NCBI GenBank assembly: GCA_034231615.1
Contig: CM067309.1
Location: forward strand, 38,967,627-39,031,626
Source of the DNA: Meghimatium bilineatum
Taxonomy: Eukaryota; Mollusca; Gastropoda; Stylommatophora; Philomycidae
DNA: 64,000 nucleotides
Reading direction: 5' to 3'
Position numbers and translations under genes: made by a program. This document shows positions 10,062-54,744 of this stretch, piece by piece. Under the pieces are notes generated by a model that did no database searches, had not been told where the DNA came from, and was given only the letters and a program-made list of their open reading frames with translations. Position 1 is the stretch's first letter. The number at the start of each line of letters is the position of its first letter.

Positions 10062-13000
10062 TCACATGAACCTGCCATTGTCATATTTGTGATAGCGAAC
10101 GTGACGTTTTGTACTTGCAGTTCCTTCAGTGGAAGCAGTGTGATCGTTATCAGATTCCTCAATGGGAGTATCACTATTTAAGTCAGAAAGCGGGGAATTA
10201 GGCGTAGTACCTACATTGGTAGCAGTGAGATCGTTATCAGATTCCTCCGTGGGAGTTTCACTATTTACGTTTGAAGACGGGGAATTAGGTGTAGGATCTT
10301 CATTGGTAGCAGTGAGATCGTTATCAGATTCCTCAATGGGAGTTTCACTATTTAAGTCAGAAAGCGGGGAATTAGGTGTAGGATCTTCATTGGTAGCAGT
10401 GAGATCGTTATCAGATTTCTCAATGGGAGTTTCACTATTTACGTTTGAAGACGGGGAATTAGGTGTAGGATCTTCATTGGAAGCAGTGAGATCGTTATCA
10501 GATTCCTCCGTGGGAGTTTCACTATTTACGTTTGAAGACGTTGGATTAGGATTATCTTTACTGCTAGGATTAGGATTATTAGAAGTTTCTATCTCAGAAT
10601 TAGGATTAGCTCTTCTGCTAGAATCAGGATTGTTAGAAGTTAGAGGGGGGTTAGAAAACGTTTCGCTGGAACTAGGAGGATTCGTAGATATTGTAGGCGT
10701 AGAAACAATAGAAGCGTTGTACTCAGGAGGGTTAGAAGAGCTGGAAGGTGTAGAGACATTATCAGACCTTTTAGAGGGCGACTGTTTTGTTGTGTCTGCA
10801 GCAGGACCTGTTGACCTTTTACTATGTCTTGTTGATTTCGAAGCAGGATTTGTCAAAGCTGCAGTAGGATCCGAGAACAGGTCATCTACATTCGTATTCG
10901 ATAAATCAGGATTTATTAAAACGGAGCTAGGATTTGAAATCGCATTATTTGTATCACTAGTTGTATTACTTGAGTCAGGGGAGATGATTCCTATGAGATT
11001 TTCTGCAGTACACTTAGTAGCGCAGTATGCGGCTCCACATACTAGTTCTAGAGCTTTGCATACGCCATTTCCGGTTTCCTGAAGTTCAGTGCTACATGAA
11101 CTTATCTTCTCCTTGCAATCATTCTCACAATTAAGCTGGCAAATACACTGCTTTGCACATAGGCTTTTGCATCTTCCTGTAAACAAATAAGTTCAAAGGT
11201 CATATTAGTTGTAAAATTGATATTGGTAAACTAAAACAACAAATCAACATTGTAGTAGTAGAAAACAAAGACAAACAAATGTTCATAAATAACAAGAAGT
11301 TATAATTTATAGCTGTTTGCAAGAAACACATTTTCCCAGCGTTGTGATGTTCGTCCGTCGTAAACGACGATGACCAAAAACTCAATCATAATAATAATAA
11401 CAATAAGTAATAAAAAAGAATAAAAGTTAATAGTGCACTTTTAAATGACTAACAAGTCCAATGTGGGCACAACATGTTCTTCTACAGAATTGACAATTGT
11501 TGAGGGTGTTTATGGGACGTTGAGATGTTGTTTCTTTCTTTTCTACGTGCCCGCTTCTGTCTTGCAGTATCTTGTCTGGTCTCTTCCGCCGCTAGTGCTT
11601 CCGTTCTAAGGCTGTTACGCCATGCTGTTCTTTTCTGAGGGAGGCTCTCCCAAGCGTGTATAGAGGGCTGTAGATGGATAGATACGACTCCAGTAAGGAA
11701 GGGATTTTACCTACAAAAAACCGTCATTCACCTATTTCCGTTTGCAAATCTCTTATTGATTTTTTTTCTGAGAAAATTGAAGACCTTTTATCTTGAGAAG
11801 TTGCTAACAGGGGGAAAAGGTGAGGGTGGGTGGGGGTGTTATCCACCTTTTGACTACATTGTTAGTACTAAATGTCATTCTCTATTTTGACTACATTACT
11901 AGTACTAAATGTCATTCTCTTATTTGCTACATTACCAGTAACATAGTCATTCTCTTATTTGACTATATTACCAGTACTAAATGTCATTCTCTTATTTGAC
12001 TATATTACCAGTACTAAATGTCATTCTCTTATTTGACTATATTACCAGTACTAAATGTCATTCTCTTATTTGACTATATTACCAGTACTAAATGTCATTC
12101 TCTTATTTGACTACATTACCAGTACTAAATGTCATTCTCTTATTTGACTATATTACCAGTACTAAATGTCATTCTCTTATTTGACTACATTACCAGTACT
12201 AAATGTCATTCTCTTATTTGACTATATTACCAGTACTAAATGTCATTCTCTTATTTGACTATATTACCAGTACTAAATGTCATTCTCTTATTTGACTATA
12301 TTACCAGTACTAAATGTCATTCTCTTATTTGACTATATTACCAGTACTAAATGTCATGTTCTGATTTGCTATGGGGTGTGTTAAACCCTCCCCCAACCAT
12401 TTCACTCTTACCTACTGGTTTATATTCAGGCTGTGTTATTTATGCTTTCATCGGCCAATGAAAAAAAACGCAGCAATAGTTATAGTGGCCTCACACCGTG
12501 ACGTAAACTAGTTTAACACTTCGGCCTGTATAAATAAGACAGGACACACATTATCGGTAACAAGAAAATAACACAACAGTTATCTCCCGACATTTTATTG
12601 AAACTACCCAAAAACAACAATTTTCTAATTCACTTACCATGAAGTGTTGAACAAAGGATATCAAAAATTACCGCCGACTTGCAAGCTTTGAAAGCTGTTT
12701 CACAACCTAAACTACAAGGTTCGTAGCAGTCTAAGGCAAAGGAAGTACTCACAGTCAAAATAGCGACAGCCAATAGAAGAACTGTGTAGAAATGTTTCAG
12801 GAATAAAAATCGATTGATGGAATGATGATAGTTACAATGGATGTTCTATATAAACAGGTGCGTGTTGTTGATGATAATATGAATTATTGCAACAATATTG
12901 AAAATTACGAGGATTATGATGATGATGATGATGATGATGATGAAATAATTACTTTAGCTGTGAGGAGGTAGTTCTTGGCGCATGATGGTGATGAAATAGT

Positions 13001-54500: not shown

Positions 54501-54744
54501 ACAGCTTGACACGTCCCGACTTCAGTACAGTTTCTGTTTGCTTTGTTGATCATTATTTCGACCAATCTATCAGTTTTTAATTTAATGCAAACATGCTAAC
54601 GTTGTTTCAGACTTTAAAGTGTGTTAATGACTGATAGATTATCTAAATATTCAGAAATATGCCGACTACACATACCATTAGCATCCAGACAACAAAAGAT
54701 AACATTAGCACTAGATATCACATGAATTCATACTTACACTTCAT
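45532..54744 (-). CDS. Gene 3: secreted 16-cysteine protein with RPQTLD/NPPSRPQ repeat tail
   Basis: The minus-strand coding exons are 54738-54744 (ATGAAGT), 48154-48300 and 45532-46409, giving about 343 residues. Intron phases are 1 and 1, as in genes 1 and 2. The signal peptide is MKFLLLTVTVLLTLSRTGA. The cysteine spacing is 3-3-6-9-6-3-3-1-3-4-2-11-6-4-3, identical to gene 2, with shared CDLYN, CGC, CPVCS, DRQLFCR and YCP.RC words. After a Tyr/Pro-rich link the tail starts with PTTEIEKPNTRNGN, a relative of the gene 2 repeat. It continues with about nine 13-15-residue repeats around NPPSRPQTLDIQ and ends in a direct duplication, NSPDTFDN. The tail is Pro/Asn/Arg-rich and basic compared with gene 1. 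A TATA box lies 80 bp upstream of the ATG. Function is unknown; secretion and a disulfide-rich head are supported by sequence, all else is inference. Confidence 0.85.
46615..47075 (+). mobile_element. LX LINE 3' part, degenerate, in intron 2 of gene 3
   Basis: It reads MPTMCYQC.TWTTTVQD, MACLRRILGISLRDRVRNED, then broken sequence to the GACGCTGAAAGACAGCAAAG...TAGCGAATATATAGAC 3' end that is characteristic of LX. Confidence 0.8.
47130..47410 (-). repeat. Repeat family B, strongly diverged
   Basis: The order of blocks (CTTCTCCTTCTGCG, GATGTAGTCCGTAGAATG, CTTTTGGGTCAC, TATTCTTTGCTCTCCTTTTG) follows family B with many substitutions. It is the oldest copy in the window. Confidence 0.7.
47640..48105. 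repeat. About 39-bp pyrimidine-rich minisatellite
   Basis: About 12 copies of TCGTTCTATCTTCCTAAGAG plus CACTCTCTTTCTCTCT with length variation are present. The array ends about 50 bp from the donor side of the gene 3 cysteine exon, in intron 2. Confidence 0.88.
48310..48915. repeat. 37-bp minisatellite in intron 1 of gene 3
   Basis: About 15 copies of TTGGTGAAGTTTTGTTTACA plus GATATCACTTTTGTATG are present. It begins about 25 bp from the acceptor of the cysteine exon, the same place as the 20-bp array of gene 2. Confidence 0.92.
49310..50055. repeat. 22/33-bp composite minisatellite (GTTACATTACAATAGAATAT)
   Basis: About 24 copies are present; short 22-bp units on the left change to units of about 33 bp carrying ACTAGCAGCGTTTTT or ACCTCCAGCGTTTTT. 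The core is shared with the 30-bp array at the same relative place in gene 2. Confidence 0.92.
50456..50569 (+). CDS. Candidate internal exon of an unknown plus-strand gene
   Basis: TGCCCTTTTCAG (acceptor) precedes an open segment QTRPHVIPSVPNRTTPQVIR ending TKEKYFTVEK at GAAAAG|GTCGTG. Base composition is richer in C and G than the surroundings, and no repeat matches. It would lie inside intron 1 of gene 3 on the other strand. The donor is weak and no domain is recognised, so this may be chance. Confidence 0.3.
50960..51510 (-). mobile_element. LW LINE 3' part with TTGA tail
   Basis: Reversed, it reads AWTVNKKIQSELEATEMWFL, a WKYHGQ segment, LRRTQLEHLITTGKIKGRRD and a short C-terminus. It ends in a TTGATTGATTGATTGATCT tail at 50965-50983. 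Frames are broken. Confidence 0.75.
51539..51735 (+). CDS. Candidate terminal exon of an unknown plus-strand gene
   Basis: TTGTTCTGACAG (acceptor) is followed by an open frame of 65 codons and a stop: VDVVLELVMGTAWVGQWVEQ, NLSQWPELFPDVDVCSGS, then RMAAGTESGALMGIPHVL. The segment is GC-rich compared with its surroundings and not repetitive, which favours a true exon. It could join in phase 0 to the candidate exon at 50456. No family is recognised. Confidence 0.4.
52085..52930 (+). mobile_element. LZ LINE, best copy
   Basis: It reads KINGKIINNIRYANGTVLLA (the FADD box altered to YANG), [72 protein letters not shown] and a C-terminus ending at the stop 52927-52929, then GATGATGATG. Two frameshifts (near 52435 and 52740) and one stop (TAA at 52201) break it. 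Confidence 0.9.
53140..54420. repeat. 29/30-bp minisatellite, 1.28 kb
   Basis: About 43 copies of CACCTCAGATTACATTATAT plus AATTGTGGA are present. The left third has a TACAATCATTGTGCA type; the rest has TATAATTGTGGA types of 29 or 30 bp, in places alternating. This is the longest array of the window and lies about 300 bp from the gene 3 first exon, in intron 1. Confidence 0.95.
54430..54545 (-). repeat. Degenerate family B fragment
   Basis: CCACTGTTTACAGCGTATCT, CAGCTTGACACGTCCCGACT and CAGTACAGTTTC follow the family B order. Confidence 0.55.

Follow-up and report, generated by a model that had tools for sequence, protein, structure and literature searches.

The 64,000-nucleotide stretch of Meghimatium bilineatum DNA analysed here (NCBI GenBank assembly GCA_034231615.1, contig CM067309.1, positions 38,967,627 to 39,031,626; hereafter the window) carries a tandem family of three genes, g1, g2 and g3, which encode putative secreted proteins made of a 16-cysteine head and a long, cysteine-free, repetitive tail. 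The genes lie in a row, all on the minus strand (10062-16952, 26247-35772 and 45532-54744, respectively). Their heads are homologous, and so are the tails of g2 and g3. The explanation that we lean towards, while giving it somewhat less than an even chance, is that these proteins are part of a secreted material, for instance mucus, in which the cysteine-rich head would serve as an anchor and the tail as a hydrated spacer with blocks of charge. Such a role would fit their composition.

The 16 cysteines of each head lie within 86 (g1) or 83 (g2 and g3) residues. Recomputation returned for all three genes the spacing given in the initial annotation, namely 3-3-6-9-6-3-3-1-3-3-6-11-6-4-3 in g1 and 3-3-6-9-6-3-3-1-3-4-2-11-6-4-3 in g2 and g3, the heads differing in one loop alone (3-6 versus 4-2). 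Head alignments score 142 (g1/g2), 128 (g1/g3) and 340 (g2/g3). None of these scores is reached by any of 1000 full shuffles and, when the cysteines are held in place, they are reached by 0, 1 and 0 of 1000 shuffles, respectively. Identical columns amount to 54/87 for g2/g3, 29/87 for g1/g2 and 28/87 for g1/g3, or 38/71, 14/72 and 13/72 when the aligned cysteines are left aside. Since at most one shuffle in 1000 reaches these scores even with fixed cysteines, the three genes belong to one family, in which g2 and g3 are the closer pair. Between the heads of this pair, nonsynonymous (dN) and synonymous (dS) divergence are 0.23 and 0.55 by the NG86 method and 0.29 and 0.31 by YN00; as the two methods disagree, the strength of selection on these heads is uncertain. 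The net charge of the heads is -1 (g1), +1 (g2) and +3 (g3). With respect to the charge-hydropathy boundary, the heads fall on the folded side and the tails on the disordered side.

The tails have 315 (g1), 522 (g2) and 239 (g3) residues, with net charges of -33, -39 and -6, respectively. Aspartate and glutamate make up 12-16% of their residues, and serine and threonine 32% in g1, 19% in g2 and 18% in g3. The g1 tail, which is acidic, rich in serine and threonine and contains 12% proline, is built on a repeat unit that measures 29 residues (87 bp) instead of the 28 or so first reported. From offset 112, the g2 tail runs in consecutive 14-residue units that keep one register through about 29 units, with proline first in 24/29 and asparagine last in 24/29. 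With limits that we chose ourselves, and omitting six residues between the last two blocks, it can be divided into a lead block (120 residues, net -4, 9 aromatics), a middle block (280 residues, net -40, 0 aromatics) and an end block (116 residues, net +6, 10 aromatics). The g2 repeat (26256-26499 with 26609-27455) passes from acidic to cationic and aromatic while the 14-residue register is kept.

The g3 tail has the same 14-residue period as that of g2, and the two align with a score of 346, compared with a maximum of 173 among 300 shuffles. Furthermore, the 75 residues adjoining the head are clearly homologous in these two genes (score of 142 versus a maximum of 60 among 1000 shuffles). The segment next to the g1 head shows no similarity to those of g2 and g3, the scores being reached by 171/1000 and 70/1000 shuffles, respectively. 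For the full g1 tail, the score is at chance level against g3 (reached by 143/300 shuffles), while that against g2 (reached by 3/300) is read as shared composition. Hence, the proposal that each tail consists of a different repeat applies to g1, whose tail is not detectably related to the others, but not to g2 and g3. Judged from these alignments, the tails are of two kinds rather than three, those of g2 and g3 deriving from a common ancestral 14-residue unit that later diverged and was amplified separately. The broader view of a tandem family with a constant head and diverging tails stands. The C-termini (FDNPFGK, FDNSAK and YDNGRFM in g1, g2 and g3) have in common an [FY]DN ending that is suggestive only. 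Across the genome, a 78-residue query from the g2 array returned 3856 candidates; 145 of the 150 that were scored match at E-values up to 1, several of them lying in g2 and g3. Three of the other matches were inspected and are short-period tandem arrays with no cysteine head in 1.2-1.4 kb. The remaining ones are probably low-complexity look-alikes.

Each gene comprises three exons separated by GT-AG introns in phase 1, and the resulting frames of 421 (g1), 626 (g2) and 343 (g3) residues contain no internal stop. Exon 1 holds Met-Lys and one extra base, exon 2 the remaining signal peptide and cysteines 1-5, and exon 3 cysteines 6-16, the entire tail and the stop codon. Position 10062 is the final base of the g1 stop codon and 54744 is the A of the g3 ATG. 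Thus, the exon plan, phases (1,1), signal-peptide-like start and orientation that the initial annotation attributed to the three genes were all recovered, at the following positions:

16946..16952 (-): g1 exon 1, tentative; ATGAAAG, phase-1 donor gtaggt; completes MKVLLLAVAILTVSTSFA
12638..12781 (-): g1 exon 2; C-x3-C-x3-C-x6-C-x9-C; acceptor ...ctacacag, donor gtaagt
10062..11176 (-): g1 exon 3; cysteines 6-16 and the 315-residue tail; repeat array at 10124-10540
35766..35772 (-): g2 exon 1; ATGAAGT, donor gtaagt; surrounding region kept in g3
29597..29743 (-): g2 exon 2; signal peptide and cysteines 1-5
26247..27973 (-): g2 exon 3; cysteines 6-16 and the 522-residue tail in 14-residue units
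54738..54744 (-): g3 exon 1; ATGAAGT, donor gtaagt
48154..48300 (-): g3 exon 2; signal peptide and cysteines 1-5
45532..46409 (-): g3 exon 3; cysteines 6-16 and the 239-residue tail, rich in proline, asparagine and arginine, in 14-residue units

Exon 1 of g1 is the sole match to ATGAA[AG]N followed by GT from 12728 to 26247. It is given as tentative because it is based on a suitable ATGAAAG followed by gtaggt and on the matching phase only, and other short ATG exons are conceivable. Between this candidate and exon 2 of g1 lie two retrotransposon fragments with an RVT_1 reverse transcriptase, at 14055-14465 (+) and 15470-15817 (-). The first polyadenylation-like hexamers are found 435, 410 and 531 bp past the stops of g1, g2 and g3, respectively; in such AT-rich DNA, they could be due to chance.

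For g2 and g3, the region around the start codon is conserved. Positions 36017-35727 (g2) and 54972-54699 (g3) show 71% identity over 297 alignment columns, the alignment reaching from about 230-245 bp ahead of the ATG through exon 1 into the start of intron 1. Both genes have a TATA-like site, ATATATAAATAGTC, located about 90-95 bp ahead of the ATG. The two upstream regions are:

35805..36017 (-): conserved stretch ahead of g2 exon 1, with a TATA-like site about 95 bp before the ATG; 71% identity to its g3 counterpart
54745..55000 (-): stretch ahead of g3 exon 1, with a TATA-like site about 90 bp before the ATG

When the 256 bp upstream of g3 were searched against the whole genome, the two candidates obtained (2/2) were g3 itself and the upstream region of g2. 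The region therefore does not resemble a dispersed repeat, and its conservation around the ATG, unique in the genome, supports exon 1 of g2 and g3. The 348 bp upstream of g1 returned only themselves (1/1), and thus bring no support for exon 1 of the kind obtained for g2 and g3.

The family was searched for in the whole genome (1.61 Gb in 32 contigs, the window being a piece of contig 12) with four exon queries at E-values up to 10. Matches among scored candidates were 6/6 for g3 exon 3, 4/6 for g2 exon 2, 4/5 for g1 exon 3 and 1/1 for g1 exon 2, and none of these four queries found a further intact member. The g1 exon-2 query missed g2 and g3, so that the search is insensitive at the distance separating g1 from g2 and may miss distant paralogues. 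One relic lies within the cluster, some 1.1 kb ahead of the first exon of g2:

36864..36914 (+): inverted exon-2 fragment; 15/17 residues as in g2; 55 bp at 89% identity; apparently decayed

This fragment is a sign of duplication and loss within the cluster. Beyond the three genes and the relic, five weak genome matches were obtained, with E-values from 0.34 to 4.8. Four of them are read as chance: counted over the aligned stretch, L011 keeps 5/9 query cysteines and contains a stop, L012 keeps 4/10, L014 keeps 2/10, and L019 keeps 3/4 with a stop in the genome match. The fifth (L043, C1:50410872-50410985) matches g1 exon 3 at E 4.8, with 5/7 cysteines in register and the later ones absent, and may be real or due to chance. 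The flanks were also screened, over 100 kb per side, by tblastn at E-values up to 1 and with the cysteine pattern. They yielded one additional match worth noting, at window offset -8730 (+) (E 0.31), which aligns 9/11 exon-3 cysteines only with gaps; it lies in a 72-residue frame (offset -8793 to -8578) that runs into a tandem array and might be either a chance match or a distant relic. The exon plan of the family is seen in none of these six weak matches, and each retains just a part of the cysteine framework. The family would therefore occur at one locus, as far as searched. As for prokaryotic relatives, 23 matches to the cysteine pattern in genome contigs were considered and none was confirmed.

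The initial annotation did not recognize the family, and searches of the databases agree with this. The three exon-3 frames match no Pfam family at E-values up to 1 and, at E-values up to 10, the three spliced heads give one zinc-finger match of 13 bits, for a cut-off of 31.2. In NCBIfam, searched with two of the three heads (g1 and g2), nothing exceeds the cut-off. Among PDB sequences, the g2 head has five non-significant matches at E-values up to 10, the best being a zinc-finger protein (E 0.18), while the g1 head, the g3 head and a three-sequence profile have none. In the open-licence literature of PMC, no description of such a family was found among the matches listed. Molluscs commonly have secreted, lineage-specific proteins that are rich in cysteine and carry repeats, and the existence of proteins of this kind is as such unsurprising. 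Many land-snail mucus proteins bear no BLAST name, according to passages of PMC10475054.

If the proteins contribute to a secreted material, the signal peptide (MK-hydrophobic-A/T) would export them from the cell, and the even set of 16 cysteines would close into a compact, disulfide-bonded head serving as an anchor or binding module. The tail would stay unfolded and form either a spacer that is charged and hydrated or a sticker block. That of g2 would be blocky, with an aromatic-bearing lead, an acidic stretch devoid of aromatics and a cationic end rich in them. That of g1, being acidic and rich in serine and threonine, is possibly O-glycosylated or ion-binding. The proteins would thus behave like those components of mucus, glue, epiphragms or egg coats that pair a cysteine domain with a disordered one. 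This reading draws on the gene models and their cysteine framework, on the confinement of all cysteines to a head on the folded side of the charge-hydropathy boundary, with the tail on the disordered side, on the blocks of the g2 tail, on the serine, threonine and proline content of the g1 tail and on the homology of the g2 and g3 tails with their common period; the many land-snail mucus proteins without a BLAST name point the same way. The tails may change in length and sequence by unequal exchange or slippage of coding minisatellites of 42 or 87 bp, which stay in frame, the head being meanwhile held by its cysteine framework. A bolder version seems unlikely to us: the head would be a new molluscan disulfide-rich fold, and coding minisatellites would tune interchangeable, block-patterned disordered tails that set the mechanics of the secreted material.

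Several points weigh against a role in a secreted material. Semislug adhesive components described in passages of PMC11178922 are of the lectin, VWA and EGF types, and Pfam detects no such domain in the three proteins. In addition, the anatomy of the genes is equally compatible with a propeptide tail that is cleaved off. Selection on the tails was assessed from substitutions scored against the consensus of resembling units (22 in g2, 6 in g3 and 4 in g1). In favour of the material role, synonymous substitutions account for 24/66 in g2 (20% expected, one-sided p 0.0015) and 19/50 in g3 (25% expected, p 0.029), but g1 shows no excess (4/15, 23% expected). Because repeat copies share history, these per-copy counts overstate the excess: when each variant is counted once, the excess disappears in g2 (9/36, p 0.28) and is barely left in g3 (14/36, one-sided p 0.046). 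Support for selection on the tails thus appears modest in g3, weak in g2 and absent in g1.

Among the alternatives, the one that survives best, rather unlikely as we judge it, is that the head is the active part, as a defence peptide, a pheromone or a mating-associated seminal protein, and the tail a removed pro-region or a solubilising carrier. A dense cysteine framework whose other positions change fast (38/71 identical in g2/g3 and 14/72 in g1/g2) would suit such a function. Dibasic pairs are present in the tails (four in g1, two in g2 and three in g3, two of the latter overlapping), yet none is found at a common position past the last cysteine. Passages of PMC2853560 describe ovipostatin, a seminal protein of a snail, as a 167-residue precursor with cysteines. 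However, the tails here are about three to six times as long as the heads, and the latter match no Pfam family above its cut-off. Moreover, the heads are near neutral (-1, +1 and +3), unlike cationic antimicrobial peptides; a search of the three heads for the positive charge of a mature antimicrobial peptide was thus negative.

The proteins could also, though with still lower probability, belong to the matrix of the shell or periostracum, where acidic tails would bind calcium or carbonate. The tails of g1 and g2 are indeed acidic (-33 and -39), and the pond-snail shell matrix includes acidic low-complexity regions and novel proteins, as reported in passages of PMC7299971. Nevertheless, the g3 tail is near neutral (-6) and the exon-3 frames contain no Pfam domain. 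Furthermore, aspartate and glutamate reach 12-16% of the tails, whereas the four low-complexity regions listed in passages of PMC7299971 contain 28.6-58.3%.

Minisatellites cover 24% of the window, in 53 arrays of period at least 9 after removal of overlaps (periods 10-206), and the period is divisible by three in 25/53, tail arrays included. With so many arrays of this kind, open frames within arrays prove little here, whereas the preserved cysteines, splice sites and intron phases, together with the retained non-repeat parts, argue for genes. It is therefore very improbable that g1, g2 and g3 are remnants of an old tandem duplication, devoid of function and kept open by the period of their minisatellites. 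In-frame arrays are not uncommon in the window, but all 16 cysteines, splice sites and phases are intact in the three genes, long non-repeat parts are open in spite of stops at 6% of the codons on the minus strand, the upstream regions of g2 and g3 are conserved and occur nowhere else in the genome, and the NG86 values of the g2/g3 heads point in the same direction, though those of YN00 do not.

If expressed as predicted, the three proteins of the preferred reading, a cysteine anchor joined to a charged spacer, would add new constituents to a secreted material of molluscs. In g2 and g3, a constrained head is combined with a homologous repeat tail that has been rebuilt; this natural pair makes the effect of the tail on material properties directly testable. 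The locus would also illustrate how new blocks of disordered protein arise within a coding exon of a minisatellite-rich genome.

Outside the cluster, an exon for a kinesin motor domain (PF00225, E 1.9e-8) lies at offset about 69428-69787 (+), about 5.4 kb past the end of the window, and may serve as a synteny anchor. Haemocyanin genes form clusters at C15:48.69-49.24 Mb and C22:44.15-44.27 Mb, with 50 matches to the PF14830 beta-sandwich; the two clusters may go back to the whole-genome duplication that has been reported in Stylommatophora. A nuclear copy of mitochondrial ND4-ND2-COI is found at C2:121988305-121991928, in which COI is truncated and gives way to a tandem array. The haemocyanin matches and this COI copy support a molluscan origin, and the COI translation looks pulmonate. 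According to passages of PMC12506671, stylommatophorans such as Deroceras, Achatina and Arion have 31 chromosomes, close to the 32 contigs of this genome.

Among known systems, gel-forming mucins resemble these proteins in being secreted and in combining a cysteine-rich domain with a long, cysteine-free, repetitive region rich in proline, serine, threonine or asparagine, whose repeats evolve fast. However, in these mucins, which consist of cysteine-rich A domains and B domains rich in serine, threonine and proline, the cysteine-rich part differs from the heads described here, which have only about 85 residues and match no VWD, C8, TIL or cystine-knot domain in Pfam; serine and threonine amount to 18-19% in the g2 and g3 tails and to 32% in that of g1. 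Molluscan defence peptides of the defensin, mytilin, myticin and macin types, which have about 8-12 cysteines and C-x3-C spacing, share with the heads a small, secreted, cysteine-rich domain and this spacing. They differ in that the proteins encoded here have 16 cysteines, near-neutral heads, a very long repeat tail and no Pfam match. The adhesive matrix proteins of pulmonates (lectins and matrilin-like proteins with VWA and EGF domains, in passages of PMC11178922) probably come from the same kind of animal, and a role in a secreted material is plausible for the present proteins too, but none of their domains was matched here. Finally, the secreted cysteine-rich repeat proteins (SCREPs) presented in passages of PMC6262176 are likewise secreted, cysteine-rich and repeat-bearing; in SCREPs, however, it is the cysteine domain that recurs, whereas in g1, g2 and g3 a single 16-cysteine domain is followed by repeats that are free of cysteine.

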